From assembly GCA_016933395.1 (NCBI GenBank), contig JAFGBA010000252.1, positions 1 through 39,646 on the forward strand: 39,646 nucleotides of DNA, given 5' to 3'. Below are positions 21,700-32,624 of this stretch, one piece after another (the first letter of the stretch is position 1; the number at the start of each line of letters is the position of its first letter). A program made the translations under genes and the position numbers. The notes below the pieces were generated by a model. The model was not told the origin of the DNA and made no database searches. It was given only the letters and a program-made list of their open reading frames with translations. Source of the DNA: Sedimentisphaerales bacterium (GTDB lineage Bacteria > Planctomycetota > Phycisphaerae > Sedimentisphaerales > SM23-30).

Positions 21700-23562
21700 T
21701 CAGTTCATAGAGTACGTCCAAAGCCAGTTTTCGGCCAGAAACGCCAAATCCAGAATATCCACCCACCCGTTGCGATCCATATCCTGGGGCGCTAGAAGGG
21801 TTTTACTCAACCAATTTTGGGTAAATTGGACAAAATCGGTAATATCAACCTGGTCATCGTTATTCAGATCCGCCACATTTCCAGCGAGCGACGTAGATTG
21901 ACTGGCCTGAGAGGTTCCTCCATAAGCCCCTATATTAACAAGTCTTCCATGAGGCCAAAGTTCCCTGACGATATGTTCATTGGGATCTCCGGCGTCGATG
22001 GCGGGACTATCAACATCATCCAATACCCATGCCCCCGTCTGGGGAGAATTTAGCCAATTTTGCATAAGCAACGCCAAATCAACAACATCCACGATATTAT
22101 TCCGGTCCAGGTCGCTCGCTATGTCAGGACCGGTTTGCATCCAATCGCCGGAAAAGCAAATAAAATCCCCAAGAGTCACTTTTCCGTCATCGTTAAAATC
22201 ACAGGAACGGTAGAAATCCGGATCCCACCTTCCGATAGTGGAACGAAGATGGTAATTGCTGGCGGTAACGGAAGGTTCCTGGAGGGCGAATTGCGGATTT
22301 TGGGTGATATTACCCAATCCCAGCCAGTTTAAAACACCATAACTATTTGTGAAAACTCCCGTCTCGCCTCCGCTGACGCAACAATAGGCAACGGTTAAAA
22401 CGGCCGGATGCTGAAAATCCCCTTCAATCGCCAACTGTCCGCCCTTGTCCGCCTGGTTGCCCCAAACTATCGAATTTTTCAAATATAATACGCTATTGGT
22501 GCACAACAGGCCGCCGCCATCATGCCCGGCGGAATTATCTGCAATAGTAAAATTCTCCAGAGTTAAATTATGACTATCAACAACCCAAACACCGGCGCCG
22601 TCACTGGCTTCGTTGCCGGCGATGATAATATTTCTCAAAATGGCGCTTTGACCCTCCCCTGTAGCCTGGATACCCCCTCCGGAACCGTAACTGACGGTAT
22701 AACAACCAATAAACACGCACTCGGAGATTTCCGGGCTATTACCGTTCATGTCCAGGTATAATCCGCCGCCAAAGGAGCCGTTATTATCCTGAAAGATACA
22801 CCTGTTCACAATAGGATTACAGTCGCCGCATAAATAGCCTCCCCCCCCAAAAGTACCGTTATTATTCTGGAAAACACAATCGCGAATTACGGGATTACTA
22901 TCGACAGTAAAGTAGAATCCGCCACCGTTGCCCAGCGTGTAATTGCCTTCAAAACGGCAATTTTCGATAACCGGCGACGCCTGATTCTGACCATAAACCG
23001 CACCGCCGGCGGCATAAGAACGGTTTTCCTGAAACATGCAATTCCGCATGGTTGGGCTGGCGCCATCGCAAAATACGGCGCCTCCAACCGATGGCTTACT
23101 GGTGGCGAGAGGAATAACTTCCTCCGGGCCATAACCATCTATAAACGTGATTCCTTCCACAACAGCTTCAGAGGTTTCATTATGTGCAAAAGAGATTCCC
23201 CGATGAGGATTATTTAACGTCCCCTGGCAGTTAATAATACAGTTTTCAGGGCCTTTATCGCTTTGGAGATGGATATGACGTGTTTGACCGCCGCCAAGCC
23301 CGTCGGCAAAATCCAAATCGACGTTTCCCGGACCTTGATAAACACCATCAGCAAGAATGACCTTATCCCCATCCACACAGAGGTTAACGGCATTCTGAAT
23401 GGTGCGTTTGGGTCCATTGGGATCGCCTGGCACGGATGAGGTCCCATTCCAGGCATCGTTTCCAAACACCGGATCCACGTAGAATGTTGATGCTTGCACG
23501 CTCAGTCTGGACAATGCAGCCAGCGCCCCCATAACGCACAACAACCCAATCCGGCTCAACAT
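21700..23562 (-). CDS. Secreted parallel beta-helix protein with paired dockerin-like modules
   Basis: A 620-residue exported protein. The signal peptide is MLSRIGLLCVMGALAALSRL with cleavage near VQA. A right-handed parallel beta-helix (about 25-460) shows repeating rungs such as GGAVYGQNQASPVIENCRF and VIRDCVFQNNNGTFGGGGY, and opens with the FYVDPVFGNDAWNGTS start common to this family. The C-terminal part contains two calcium-loop pairs of dockerin type: CDFNDDGKVTLGDFICF with SDLDRNNIVDVVDLALL, and ADLNNDDQVDITDFVQF with QDMDRNGWVDILDLAFL. There is no PEP-CTERM tail. The start at 23562 is preceded by GAGGAGG; the longer frame to 23622 has no ribosome site. Polysaccharide binding or cleavage is possible, but no catalytic residues can be assigned. 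Confidence 0.87.
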   Translation of the reverse strand: MLSRIGLLCVMGALAALSRLSVQASTFYVDPVFGNDAWNGTSSVPGDPNGPKRTIQNAVNLCVDGDKVILADGVYQGPGNVDLDFADGLGGGQTRHIHLQSDKGPENCIINCQGTLNNPHRGISFAHNETSEAVVEGITFIDGYGPEEVIPLATSKPSVGGAVFCDGASPTMRNCMFQENRSYAAGGAVYGQNQASPVIENCRFEGNYTLGNGGGFYFTVDSNPVIRDCVFQNNNGTFGGGGYLCGDCNPIVNRCIFQDNNGSFGGGLYLDMNGNSPEISECVFIGCYTVSYGSGGGIQATGEGQSAILRNIIIAGNEASDGAGVWVVDSHNLTLENFTIADNSAGHDGGGLLCTNSVLYLKNSIVWGNQADKGGQLAIEGDFQHPAVLTVAYCCVSGGETGVFTNSYGVLNWLGLGNITQNPQFALQEPSVTASNYHLRSTIGRWDPDFYRSCDFNDDGKVTLGDFICFSGDWMQTGPDIASDLDRNNIVDVVDLALLMQNWLNSPQTGAWVLDDVDSPAIDAGDPNEHIVRELWPHGRLVNIGAYGGTSQASQSTSLAGNVADLNNDDQVDITDFVQFTQNWLSKTLLAPQDMDRNGWVDILDLAFLAENWLWTYSMN

Positions 23563-23859
23563 GAGCCACGAACCTCCTCTGTAACGCGGGCAGGCTCTTT
23601 CTCCTCCAAAACTTATACTCATCAGTTATGTTACCAACAGATTTGCATAAAATCAACCATATCAATAAACAAGCCTGTTAAAAACAAAGCCGAATCTATC
23701 TTAACTATTTGCCAATAAAGGAGTTACTGATAACACGTCACTCAATCACTCCCTTTTAACCTTGACCCGGCTTATAATGGAAGTTAGATTGCATTGTTCT
23801 TTTTGACAAAATAAGGTATTACTTGACCAATAGCAGGAACTTAGAGCGAATGACACAAT

Positions 23860-27636: not shown

Positions 27637-28352
27637 TAACACCTTCTGATGAGTTTTATCAATGGGGGGCGTGGTTTACGGTTGAGGCCGAAGCCGCCTG
27701 GCTTTCACACCACGATACCTGCCGTCACTGGCAGCGCGCGTTGCGGCGCACGGATTTAAAATTACGCTATTCGTCAGGATTCAATCCGCATCCGAAGATA
27801 TCCTTGCCGACACCGCGGTCCGTCGGGCAAAAATCCCGGGAAGAGTTGACGCTTTTTGAGACGATTGCTCCCTATGCAACCGAACATCTTCACCGGCGGT
27901 TGGCGGAACAAATGCCGGCGAATATTATTTTGGTGCGCAGCGGATATTTTTGTCCGCGCGTGAAGATATATCCCACGGCGGCCGCGTACCGATTACGGCT
28001 ATCGGCCCGCCTGGACACCCAGGCCCTGGCCCGAAACATCGCCGGCTTCAATAAGGCCGCGGAATGGCCCGTTGTCCGCGCCGCCCACGGCCGACATCCG
28101 CAACGCCGGATCGATATCCGAGCCGGCGTCGTAAATCTCACCCTGGATCAGCGGGAACTGTGCTGGACGTTGACCTTCAACGCCGCCGGAACCTGCCGTA
28201 TTAACGAATTACTCGCAGCCCTTGATATCCCTGATGACGGTATCGAGGAACTGCTTCGAGAACAGGTAAGTTATCGCGTGATACAATCCGGACAAACTTA
28301 TGAGGTTGCCGACACCGCCGCATTGATGGCGTTGACGCAGTCCGTCGCTTGA
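27633..28352 (+). CDS. DUF2344 (TIGR03936) domain protein
   Basis: A 239-residue protein of the DUF2344/TIGR03936 family, normally found next to or fused with a radical-SAM protein of the TIGR03960 type and often just before an RNase E/G gene. The family start is clear: FTVEAEAAWLSHHDTCRHWQRALRRTDLKLRYSSGFNPHPKIS. The biochemical role is not established, though links to tRNA or rRNA modification have been suggested. Here it starts on the ptsI stop (ATGA overlap) and RNase E/G follows, but the radical-SAM partner is missing between them. Sequence beyond residue 180 is more divergent. Confidence 0.88.
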   Translation: MITPSDEFYQWGAWFTVEAEAAWLSHHDTCRHWQRALRRTDLKLRYSSGFNPHPKISLPTPRSVGQKSREELTLFETIAPYATEHLHRRLAEQMPANIILVRSGYFCPRVKIYPTAAAYRLRLSARLDTQALARNIAGFNKAAEWPVVRAAHGRHPQRRIDIRAGVVNLTLDQRELCWTLTFNAAGTCRINELLAALDIPDDGIEELLREQVSYRVIQSGQTYEVADTAALMALTQSVA

Positions 28353-28414
28353 TTCCGGAATATCTGGAACACGCTAAAAAAACGGAACAATTTACACAGA
28401 AAGGGGTAACGACT

Positions 28415-29944
28415 TTGGCGCGCGAAATGCTAATTAATGTGGCGCAGGAAGAAGAGTGCCGCATCGCCGTCGTGGAAGACGGTCAACTGGAAGAACTGTA
28501 TATTGAGCGTATTAATGACGGAAGCCACGTCGGCAACATTTATAAAGGCAAGGTGGTCAATGTTGAGCCGAGCATTCAGGCGTGTTTTGTTGATTTTGGC
28601 ATCGGTAAAAACGGTTTCCTCCATATCAGCGACCTGCAATCGAGTTACTTTCAGGAAAAATCCGTCGAAAAGGAACGCGTGGGGAAAAAACGCCCCCGCC
28701 GGGATCGACCGCCGATTCAGGAATGCCTAAAACGCGGTCAGGAACTGATTGTTCAGGTGATTAAGGAAGGCATCGGCACCAAAGGACCGACGCTAACGAC
28801 ATATTTGTCGATCCCCGGACGATTTCTCGTGCTTATGCCCGGCATGAATCGTTTGGGCATCAGCCGTAAAATCGAGGATGACGAAGCGCGCAACAAACTG
28901 CGGGATTTGCTCAAACAACTGGAAATGCCCAAGGACATGGGTTTCATCGCCCGCACCGCCGGCATCGACCGCAATAAACGCGAACTGCAGCGCGACTTGA
29001 ATTATTTGATGCGTTTATGGAATAATATCAACGGCAAAATAAAATCCACCCCTGCTCCCATTGTGTTATATCAGGAATCGGATCTGGTCACCCGCACCCT
29101 GCGTGACGTTTTCAACAGCAACATTACCCGCGTCAGTTGTGATTCCGACGCCACCGTGAAAAAAGTGCGCGATTTTCTTCGCGTCGCCATGCCGCGCACG
29201 CGCTGCAAGGTGCAGCTTTACACGGAAAGCCGCCCTCTTTTCAGCAAATACGGCATCGAAGAGGAAATCGAGCGCATTCAGGCGCGCCACGTCGCTTTGA
29301 AAAACGGCGGTTCGCTGGTCATCGACTCCACCGAGGCGCTGGTGGCCATCGACGTCAACAGCGGTAAATACCGCGCCCACGAAGACGCCGAATCCACGGC
29401 TTTCAAGATCAACCAGGCCGCCGTACCGGAAATCGCCCGTCAGTTACGTCTGCGCGATTTGGGCGGCGTTATCATTATTGATTTTATCGACATGATGCAG
29501 GAAAAACACCGCCGCGCCATTGAAAAGATATTGCGCGAAGCCGTCGCCCTGGACCGCGCCCGCACCAAGATTTTGCGCATCAGCCAGTTCGGCATCGTGG
29601 AAATGACCCGCCAGCGCATGCGCCCGTCTTTTACCCACAGTTCTTACAGCCAGTGCCCGCTTTGCCGCGGTTACGGACGGGTAAAAACTCCCGAAAGCAT
29701 TTCTATCGAAGTCATGCGGCGGCTGCAAAGTCTGATAAACCGCAATGACATGATGCAAATCCAGGTCACCCTTCATCCCACGGCGGCCTTGTTTCTGCAA
29801 AATCAAAAACGCGCCGTGATCGCCGATTTGGAAAAAACCAAAGGACGCGCCATTATCATTGACGCCGATCCTCTTCTGAGCCACAACGAATTCCGTTTCT
29901 CCGGGAAAGACGCGCGCGGCAGCGTTATAAATCTCGATGGATAA
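28415..29944 (+). CDS. rng: Ribonuclease E/G family endoribonuclease
   Basis: A 509-residue endoribonuclease that cuts single-stranded RNA, acting in mRNA decay and rRNA maturation. It has an S1 RNA-binding domain (GNIYKGKVVNVEPSIQACFVD), an RNase H-like and 5'-sensor region, the metal-binding acids Asp313 (VAIDVNSGKY) and Asp356 (IIIDFIDM), and the zinc-link CPLC (414-417). It lacks the long C-terminal scaffold of E. coli RNase E and so is RNase G-like. The start is TTG at 28415: it has AAAGGGG eight bases upstream and yields the usual opening MAREMLINV. The frame opens earlier, at 28349, inside the DUF2344 gene. Confidence 0.95.
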   Translation: MAREMLINVAQEEECRIAVVEDGQLEELYIERINDGSHVGNIYKGKVVNVEPSIQACFVDFGIGKNGFLHISDLQSSYFQEKSVEKERVGKKRPRRDRPPIQECLKRGQELIVQVIKEGIGTKGPTLTTYLSIPGRFLVLMPGMNRLGISRKIEDDEARNKLRDLLKQLEMPKDMGFIARTAGIDRNKRELQRDLNYLMRLWNNINGKIKSTPAPIVLYQESDLVTRTLRDVFNSNITRVSCDSDATVKKVRDFLRVAMPRTRCKVQLYTESRPLFSKYGIEEEIERIQARHVALKNGGSLVIDSTEALVAIDVNSGKYRAHEDAESTAFKINQAAVPEIARQLRLRDLGGVIIIDFIDMMQEKHRRAIEKILREAVALDRARTKILRISQFGIVEMTRQRMRPSFTHSSYSQCPLCRGYGRVKTPESISIEVMRRLQSLINRNDMMQIQVTLHPTAALFLQNQKRAVIADLEKTKGRAIIIDADPLLSHNEFRFSGKDARGSVINLDG

Positions 29945-29947
29945 ACG

Positions 29948-30802
29948 ATGATGCTCAATGCGTTGAGTTTTAATGTCGAATCCTATGGGGACGCCCTGGC
30001 CGCGGCGCCTCATTCGCCAAACGCGGTTTGCCCATCGGATGACCGGATCGAATACGGATTGTCGATCGTGCGGGAATTATTGGAACGTTATAATACACAA
30101 GCGACGTTCTTCTTCTCCGGAGAAATTGCCCGCCGCCATCCGGAGTGGGTTCGGCGCCTCAGTAAGGAAGGACACGAAATCGCCGCTCAACTCATGACCT
30201 TTCGCCGTCTTGTGGATATTCCTCCGGAACATTTCCGCGGCGAACTCCAACAATGTAAAACCTTATTGGAAGACCTTATCGACCGTCCTGTTCGAGGTTT
30301 TCGTGCTCCCTACTTCAGCATGATCCGGCAAACATTCTGGACCCTTGATGAAATTGTTCATCTGGGATTCAATTATGACGCCAGCATTATCCCTGTCCGC
30401 CATGGGGATTTTGGGATTCCCGAAGTACTTCCCAACATCCATAAGCTGACCACTTTGGAACATCAGCATATCACGGAAGTCCCTCCTTTAACTATCGGCT
30501 GGACGGGCCATCGCTTTCCTCTTGGCACCACTCCATACCTGCGGCTGATACCGTCAGGTTGGACCTGGCTTTTTATCCGAAGGCGAAACAGGGCGGGATT
30601 TCCCACCTTGATTAACTTTAATACCTGGGAATTTGACCCCGCCCAACCCCGTCTGACATTGCCCTGGCTAAAACGTGCTTTCCATTATTACAACCTTAGT
30701 GGAACCATCCGCAAACTTAAATACCTTTGTCGCCACGTCCATTTTGCTCCCATCGCTCAGTTTGTTTTTCCCGGCGATTCGCTACTCTCGCCCGCCGGCT
30801 AA
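29948..30802 (+). CDS. Polysaccharide deacetylase homologue of the exosortase-linked type, catalytic residues lost
   Basis: A 284-residue NodB-fold protein close to the deacetylases of PEP-CTERM/exopolysaccharide loci (TIGR03006 with a DUF3473-like C-terminus). The framework is well kept: QATFFFSGEIARRHPEWVRR, RGFRAPYFSMI, FNYDASIIPVRHGDFGIPEV. The active-site motifs are not. The usual VDVEDY reads FNVESY (Asn9, Ser12), HEIASHGYxH reads HEIAAQLMTF (Gln81, Phe85), and LHPWEID reads FNTWEFD (Asn225, Thr226). It therefore cannot bind metal in the standard way and is probably a binding or scaffold protein. There is no signal peptide. It starts 3 bases after the rng stop, with no ribosome site of its own, so it is probably coupled to rng. 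Confidence 0.85.
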   Translation: MMLNALSFNVESYGDALAAAPHSPNAVCPSDDRIEYGLSIVRELLERYNTQATFFFSGEIARRHPEWVRRLSKEGHEIAAQLMTFRRLVDIPPEHFRGELQQCKTLLEDLIDRPVRGFRAPYFSMIRQTFWTLDEIVHLGFNYDASIIPVRHGDFGIPEVLPNIHKLTTLEHQHITEVPPLTIGWTGHRFPLGTTPYLRLIPSGWTWLFIRRRNRAGFPTLINFNTWEFDPAQPRLTLPWLKRAFHYYNLSGTIRKLKYLCRHVHFAPIAQFVFPGDSLLSPAG

Positions 30803-31056: not shown

Positions 31057-31086
31057 TTGACAAAACGGTACTTGTTTTGCTATATT
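31057..31086 (+). promoter_or_regulatory. Sigma-70-type promoter upstream of the sigma-54 activator gene
   Basis: TTGACA (31057-31062), an 18-base spacer and TATATT (31081-31086), in an AT-rich region. Transcription would begin near 31093, leaving a leader of about 100 bases before the TTG start at 31194. Confidence 0.6.
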
Positions 31087-31193
31087 TAGAGTTGTAGTTC
31101 CAGGGTGAGTCTAGGCGCCTTGGTGAGGCCAAGAGAGTAGTACCTTTCCTTTCACCACCTTCAGGAAACAGTGAGTGAGGGAGAGAGGTTCTG

Positions 31194-32624
31194 TTGTCGT
31201 CCCCCTATCAGGCAACAGGTAATCGTGTCCTGTTCTGGGCCGATGCAGGTTGCCGGCGTCGCTGTGACGCGTTCTTTGCGGGTCTGTCCGACCGCGTCGA
31301 AACGGTAGATAATCTGAGTCGTACCGAGTCGGATGCGAAGGCACAACCGCCTGCGGTTTTGCTGGTCGCTGGAAATATACCCACGAAGAATCCGAATACG
31401 CCGACGCCGGAACTTATCGAATCCTTGCAGCGGTTCCGTCAGAACAATCCGGCCTGTTATATCATCTATCTGGCCGAGGGCGACCTATCCGTACATCAAA
31501 CCTGTAGCCTGATAAACGCCGGGGTAAATGCCATTATCAATTGTCAATTGCCAGACGCCCCCCAGCGACTTGATGAACATCTCGGCCAAGGCCTACTTTG
31601 GCGCCGGCAGCAACAAAAAGATAAATCCCTCAATTTTGACGACCATCAGCTCATTGGCCGGAGCGAAATTTTCCAGCGGGTGATCGCCCAGGCTCATCGC
31701 GCTGCGCTGGTTTCAGACGCCCCCGTCCTTATCTATGGCGAATCCGGCACCGGCAAACAACGTCTGGCGGAACTGATTCACCAATTTGACGAAAAACGGT
31801 CCACATATCCCTTGGTTTGCGTAAATTGTGCAGCAATCACGGGTTCTTTGGCCGAAAGTGAGCTTTTCGGGCACTGCAAAGGAGCCTTTACGGGGGCTAC
31901 CCACGACCGGCCGGGATATCTCCGTTCCGCCCACCAGGGGACGGTCATGCTCGATGAAGTCAGCGAACTCACCCCCGGCCTGCAATCCAAGCTGTTGCGG
32001 TTTCTCCAGGAAAATCTGGTCCGCCCGGTTGGTAGTGATCGTGAATTCACTGTTGATGTCCGTATCATTGCCGCCACTAATCGCCGTCTTGACCAAATGG
32101 TCGCCGACGGCAAATTCCGTCTGGATCTATACCATCGTCTCAATGTCATTTACCTGGAAACGCCCCCTCTTCGCCAGCGCACCGAAGATATTCCTATTTT
32201 GTTTAAGGCTTTTCTTCGCAAATATGCACACTATTGTCGGGAATCCATCGAAGATGTTGATCCCGTCGTGTATGACATTATCCGCCGTAACCTTGGCCGG
32301 GGCAATATCCGCGAACTCGAAAATATCGTCCGCCAGACCCTCGCCTTCAAGGATCACGGCCGACGCATTGAACCGACCGACCTGCCCGGCCACCTGCTCC
32401 GGCGGCCGGAACATGATTTATCTTCCCCTGCGGTGATCCCCGACGATCTCATTGACCAGCTTGCCCAGGGCAGCCGACGGCTTCACGACGCCGTCAACGA
32501 TTTCGAAAAAACGATGCTTGCCCGCCTTATCAAACGCTGTCCCAATCGCCAGCAACTCGCCCAACGCCTCGGTATTACCCGCCGCACGCTCTACAACAAA
32601 CTCCGCCAGTATCACCTTGACTAA
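31194..32624 (+). CDS. Sigma-54-dependent transcriptional activator with degenerate receiver domain
   Basis: A 476-residue activator of sigma-54 RNA polymerase. The N-terminal part (about 10-130) has the length and pattern of a receiver domain, but where the phospho-acceptor Asp should follow the third strand it reads AVLLVAGNIPT, with no Asp. The AAA+ domain (about 150-395) is intact: Walker A GESGTGKQ (182-189), the sigma-54 contact loop GAFTGA (230-235), Walker B TVMLDEV (250-256) and the Arg-finger region. A Fis-type helix-turn-helix ends the protein (RLGITRRTLYNKLRQYHLD). The start is TTG at 31194 with AGAGAGG upstream. No sensor kinase is adjacent, so it is probably controlled by something other than phosphorylation. 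It lies after the deacetylase-like gene; its target promoters were not found. Confidence 0.92.
   Translation: MSSPYQATGNRVLFWADAGCRRRCDAFFAGLSDRVETVDNLSRTESDAKAQPPAVLLVAGNIPTKNPNTPTPELIESLQRFRQNNPACYIIYLAEGDLSVHQTCSLINAGVNAIINCQLPDAPQRLDEHLGQGLLWRRQQQKDKSLNFDDHQLIGRSEIFQRVIAQAHRAALVSDAPVLIYGESGTGKQRLAELIHQFDEKRSTYPLVCVNCAAITGSLAESELFGHCKGAFTGATHDRPGYLRSAHQGTVMLDEVSELTPGLQSKLLRFLQENLVRPVGSDREFTVDVRIIAATNRRLDQMVADGKFRLDLYHRLNVIYLETPPLRQRTEDIPILFKAFLRKYAHYCRESIEDVDPVVYDIIRRNLGRGNIRELENIVRQTLAFKDHGRRIEPTDLPGHLLRRPEHDLSSPAVIPDDLIDQLAQGSRRLHDAVNDFEKTMLARLIKRCPNRQQLAQRLGITRRTLYNKLRQYHLD

Follow-up and report, generated by a model that had tools for sequence, protein, structure and literature searches.

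The locus and its neighbourhood

The window analysed here is a stretch of 39,646 nucleotides from a Sedimentisphaerales bacterium (assembly GCA_016933395.1, contig JAFGBA010000252.1, positions 1 to 39,646, forward strand). On its plus strand, at 29948..30802, lies an open reading frame (ORF) of 284 amino acids that is full-length and intact, with neither an internal stop nor a frameshift. Its product matches the TIGR03006, DUF3473 and Polysacc_deac_1 models and is discussed below as a putative pseudoenzyme of the XrtA-type polysaccharide deacetylases. The coordinates and frame given for it in an earlier note on this DNA are correct, as are the three motif strings FNVESY, HEIAAQLMTF and FNTWEFD.

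The raiA, ptsN, HPr, ptsI, DUF2344 and rng genes are closely spaced between 24756 and 29944, which places PTS-Ntr components beside an RNase E/G gene. The last gene of this conserved upstream operon encodes a Rne/Rng family ribonuclease (28349..29944, plus strand; TIGR00757, 504 bits over cut-off), and its stop codon lies 3 bases ahead of the ORF. The order ptsN-HPr-ptsI-DUF2344-rng is kept across the family genomes inspected, but when a syntenic orthologue was sought after rng in seven genomes of the family and two of the order, a different gene, or none nearby, stood there each time. Since the gene after rng differs among genomes, the adjacency carries no functional weight, and the coupling to RNase E/G that the earlier note had drawn from it reduces to a 3-base gap in this genome only. 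Elsewhere in the window, the ORF at 21700-23622 on the minus strand has a 38%-identical homologue in another genome of the family (L114:7309-8982), placed two genes after rng.

The next gene downstream is, as had been claimed, a sigma-54 activator (31194..32624, plus strand; Sigma54_activat, 202 bits). It starts 391 bases beyond the ORF and behind a sigma-70-like promoter site of its own, TTGACA-18-TATATT with an extended -10 (31057..31086, plus strand; 11/12 consensus matches). Because of this distance and this site, the activator is probably a transcription unit apart from the putative pseudoenzyme, with no demonstrable link to it. A G-rich leader of ~100 bases (31087-31193) runs from the promoter-like site to the TTG start of the activator and contains the short inverted repeat GGCGCCTTGGTGAGGCC; no Rfam match was obtained anywhere in the window, this leader included. 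The N-terminal ~140 residues of the activator match no Pfam family and read like a degenerate receiver domain. Its AAA+ and Fis parts are closest to RtcR-type activators, including the PADLOC RtcR_PspF2 model, but no alignment joins its N-terminus to their CARF domain. Assignments as PrsR, the PEP-CTERM regulator, or as RtcR were rejected, both models scoring far below cut-off.

Family assignment and descent

In a profile search, the ORF product aligned to positions 1-270 of the 272 of TIGR03006 with 200.4 bits (E 3e-59), short of the equivalog cut-off of 276.2 bits. It passed the gathering cut-offs of both Pfam domains, with 56.1 bits against 23.1 for Polysacc_deac_1 (PF01522) and 85.3 bits against 29.6 for DUF3473 (PF11959). 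By these scores, which lie far above chance, the product is homologous to the XrtA-type polysaccharide deacetylases (TIGR03006/DUF3473), and the family assignment of the earlier note holds. The protein gave no match in PADLOC, hence no defence link.

The nearest homologue (L085) is about 41-43% identical to the ORF product, a distance already saturated for dN/dS, is canonical (TIGR03006, 345.4 bits) and has an exosortase and an XrtA-type amidotransferase homologue in its neighbourhood. Given this canonical state and this setting, the putative pseudoenzyme most probably evolved from a genuine XrtA deacetylase. The source genome, which is 70% complete and in 384 contigs, also encodes two canonical paralogues (C149 and C181) and two exosortases, the latter on other contigs than the window. 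One of the paralogues, C149, scores 312.6 bits against the TIGR03006 cut-off of 276.2, so an active enzyme presumably remains in the genome. The C149 gene adjoins one for a large TPR protein resembling PrsT, below the PrsT model cut-off.

Active-site residues

The active site was compared in an alignment with 150 distinct relatives drawn from overlapping sets of 60 close genomes, 397 of the class, 392 of the phylum and 161 of the order. One relative, L013, is a fragment whose N-terminal region is missing, so positions 9 and 11 were scored in 149. Four catalytic positions are substituted in the ORF product: D9 to N, H81 to Q, H85 to F and H225 to N. The catalytic Asp of motif 1 is replaced by Asn at codon 9 (AAT, 29972..29974, plus strand), a position at which 145 relatives have D and 4 have E. 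The two metal His of motif 2, each H in 150/150 relatives, are replaced by Gln at codon 81 (CAA, 30188..30190, plus strand) and by Phe at codon 85 (TTT, 30200..30202, plus strand). The His-Pro of motif 5, again invariant (H 150/150, P 150/150), has become Asn-Thr at codons 225-226 (30620..30625, plus strand). The metal His and the motif-5 His are thus present in every relative, and the ORF product is the sole exception. The order search added 15 loci, some of them in genomes that had been sampled before, and each has the three His and an acidic D or E at position 9.

Other positions of the site are retained. Glu at codon 11 (29978..29980, plus strand; E in 149/149 relatives) is the probable metal-ligand acid of the D-x-E motif, and the motif-3 Arg is kept at codon 119 (CGT, 30302..30304, plus strand; R 150/150). 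D144, S146, E177, P179 and R199 are also kept. Losses besides the catalytic residues are W27, L57 and the GGG loop, which is replaced by TTP at codons 194-196 (30527..30535, plus strand; G194 in 142/150, G195 in 150/150 and G196 in 140/150 relatives). Position 12 is S in the ORF product and variable in the relatives (E 72, D 67, A 4, C 3, G 2, T 1); by this alignment it is no conserved ligand, the invariant pair being D9-x-E11. The earlier claim that both Asp, both metal His and the late His are gone together therefore stands for D9, H81, H85 and H225, but not for a second Asp, and "every catalytic motif replaced" slightly overstates a loss that leaves E11 and Arg119 in place.

The roles of these residues can be read by analogy with HP0310, a CE4-fold protein of known structure that ranks among the best structural matches. 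In the HP0310 structure, D12 of the D12-x-D14 motif contacts the catalytic water, D14 binds the metal together with His86 and His90, and the late His is His247 (PMC3084791). By this comparison, the catalytic base, two of the three metal ligands and the motif-5 His would be lost and one metal-ligand acid kept, with E11 as the probable third metal ligand. Since the lost residues are those on which the known CE4 mechanism depends, metal-dependent deacetylation should have been lost with them, and the product is very probably not a metal-dependent deacetylase.

Some otherwise intact relatives (L136, L157, L158 and L006, and also L211, L212, L220, L221 and L222) have Glu in place of Asp at the catalytic-base position, with CELEDWFH as an example motif. 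This subgroup may be a distinct family variant.

Predicted fold

An AlphaFold2 model of the ORF product, built from an input alignment of 45 window- or locus-encoded sequences, has a pLDDT of 91.7 and a pTM of 0.91. Its top Foldseek matches in the PDB are CE4-fold proteins (E 1e-12 to 1e-8), namely 3rxz, 3qbu, the BA3943 pseudoenzyme entries 6hm9, 7bkf and 6hpa, and PuuE (3cl6). The canonical nearest homologue has the same Foldseek neighbours. The model supports an intact barrel, weakly when taken by itself because the alignment of relatives carries the fold. As the earlier note had supposed, then, the losses concentrate at the active site of a protein whose fold is predicted to persist. Given the losses of W27, L57 and the GGG loop, the sugar groove could be altered too.

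Constraint versus decay

Among columns conserved in at least 95% of the relatives, the ORF product keeps 21/24 non-catalytic and 0/4 catalytic residues (Fisher p 0.0017, a descriptive value only because the catalytic columns were picked with the sequence already known). Outside the motifs, ~94% of its residues recur in relatives at the same column and 6.4% recur in none. The latter fraction is the highest among the 151 sequences; in the relatives it does not exceed 5.0%, and their median is 1.3%. When the nearest homologue was neutrally decayed in simulation to about 46% identity, 22% of residues were unseen and about 6 stops appeared. In a FastTree tree of the 151 sequences, the ORF product has the longest terminal branch (1.69, median 0.39), and its root-to-tip distance ranks 30 of 151 under midpoint rooting. 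Its GC3 is 0.53, and both GC3 and codon bias are below those of most neighbours. By these measures the gene looks mostly constrained and mildly aberrant, slightly beyond any active relative. The clustering of the conserved-column losses in the motifs disfavours simple neutral decay.

The dead form has been seen in one genome only, among the genomes searched. An orthologue with the D9, H81, H85 and H225 substitutions was found in none of ~900 distinct genomes (1,054 genome searches), so that the orthologues next to rng which the earlier note had envisaged did not appear in that set. A search of 84,980 GTDB genomes for a close orthologue by peptide patterns returned a single match, which is 35% identical and canonical, and no dead copy was present in three genomes of the class of the nearest homologue.

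The strongest alternative to retention is that the gene, as a third deacetylase copy, is redundant, is under relaxed selection and is turning into a pseudogene. With two canonical copies still in the genome, catalysis would have been the first thing to go, and only a recent loss, or the position of the gene behind a strong operon, would account for the surviving frame. The two canonical paralogues, the failure to find dead motifs in an orthologue in any genome searched, the highest unseen-residue fraction, the longest terminal branch and the weak codon bias all fit such a copy, and a neutral phase of 0.05 substitutions per site would leave the frame open with a probability of about 0.26. Recent relaxation, as a short neutral phase of this kind, is compatible with the data. 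Against it, the losses are concentrated at the active site rather than spread, and the multi-base changes in the motif codons demand more neutral time than the remainder of the gene shows. There is also no stop or frameshift, and the probability that a frame stays open through 0.2 neutral substitutions per site is only about 0.01. We regard the relaxed copy as a possible but less probable account, and retention of the gene as likelier than its decay. The earlier proposal of a selected role rather than decay is thus backed indirectly, by the constraint outside the motifs, and is held back because no orthologue that keeps the dead form turned up in the genomes searched.

A proposed non-catalytic role and its alternatives

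On balance, we lean towards a lineage-specific cytoplasmic CE4 pseudoenzyme that arose from an XrtA deacetylase and has a non-catalytic role in tuning exopolysaccharide (EPS). Homology supports a canonical polysaccharide deacetylase of an XrtA/exosortase cluster as the ancestor. The product shows no evident signal peptide and is predicted to fold into a barrel that is soluble in the cytoplasm. Its most likely role would be non-catalytic: with the motif-3 Arg and presumably some of the sugar-contacting crevice kept, it may bind an exopolysaccharide precursor or an active paralogue and so tune EPS production. The glycan sensing put forward in the earlier note is a guess. The 3-base gap suggests that the gene may be co-expressed with the raiA-ptsN-HPr-ptsI-DUF2344-rng operon. 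The fuller version, in which a maintained cytoplasmic pseudo-deacetylase binds EPS precursors or the active deacetylase and thereby ties EPS production to the PTS-Ntr/RNase E/G operon, seems improbable.

Still less probable is a new catalysis on the same fold, either metal-independent or with a differently bound metal. The PuuE allantoinase is a precedent, being a NodB-fold enzyme that works without metal (PMC10967932), and its structure 3cl6 is among the fold matches; E11, R119, D144, E177 and R199 are all kept. However, the ORF product has no sequence affinity to PuuE beyond the common fold, F85, N225 and T226 give no recognisable catalytic set, and there is no conserved family to show one. 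That an ordinary enzyme merely looks dead, through an error in sequencing or assembly or because the gene is chimeric, is effectively excluded: the assembly is fragmented and 70% complete, but the gene follows a conserved operon within one continuous contig of 39.6 kb, its frame is unbroken, and four separate catalytic codons (with H85 to F needing at least 2 bases) differ along with other motif codons, which also disposes of the error restoring the motifs that the earlier note had considered.

Annotation pipelines would label the ORF product an enzyme, and it is almost certainly no metal-dependent deacetylase. The exosortase-branch relatives checked, in two slightly overlapping sets of 150 and 15, keep the three His and the acidic base, apart from the one fragment that lacks the base region. 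If the favoured non-catalytic protein is indeed maintained, it would be a naturally evolved form of an EPS enzyme without catalysis and would extend the CE4 pseudoenzymes to the exosortase-associated branch. Were the coupling version true, the protein would be the first pseudoenzyme of the DUF3473/XrtA branch within the literature searched.

Comparison with known systems

The putative pseudoenzyme resembles the TIGR03006 family in its full-length alignment, domain order, RAP motif and DASI region, in an N-terminal D-x-E region without a signal peptide, and in having its nearest homologue in an exosortase cluster. It differs in the replacement of the catalytic Asp, both metal His, the motif-5 His-Pro and the GGG loop, and in lying outside any exosortase/EPS cluster, between a PTS/rng operon and a sigma-54 activator.

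Several CE4-fold proteins with altered active sites have been described. The discussion in PMC10967932 treats BA0150 (4M1B) and EcCDA (2VYO) as inert or probably inactive, and BA3943 is deposited in the PDB as a CE4 pseudoenzyme. Like the ORF product, BA3943 (7bkf) and BA0150 (4m1b) of Bacillus keep the NodB barrel with departed catalytic motifs; BA0150 has no metal, and both are among the fold matches. On the other hand, they belong to Gram-positive CE4 branches with the usual motif 1 TFDDG, are membrane-anchored or exported, and are not DUF3473 proteins. EcCDA of Encephalitozoon cuniculi shares the absence of both metal His and the catalytic Asp, but it also lacks the motif-3 Arg that is kept here, and it is a eukaryotic protein of another CE4 branch. 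For BA0330 and BA0331, no deacetylase activity was detected, yet both are needed for cell-wall stability (PMC4505593). They are a precedent for deacetylase-fold proteins whose activity is dispensable for a cell-wall role, although they are lipoproteins with an Fn3 domain from another CE4 group. CE4 pseudoenzymes are therefore already known, and the protein described here would add one from the DUF3473 branch.
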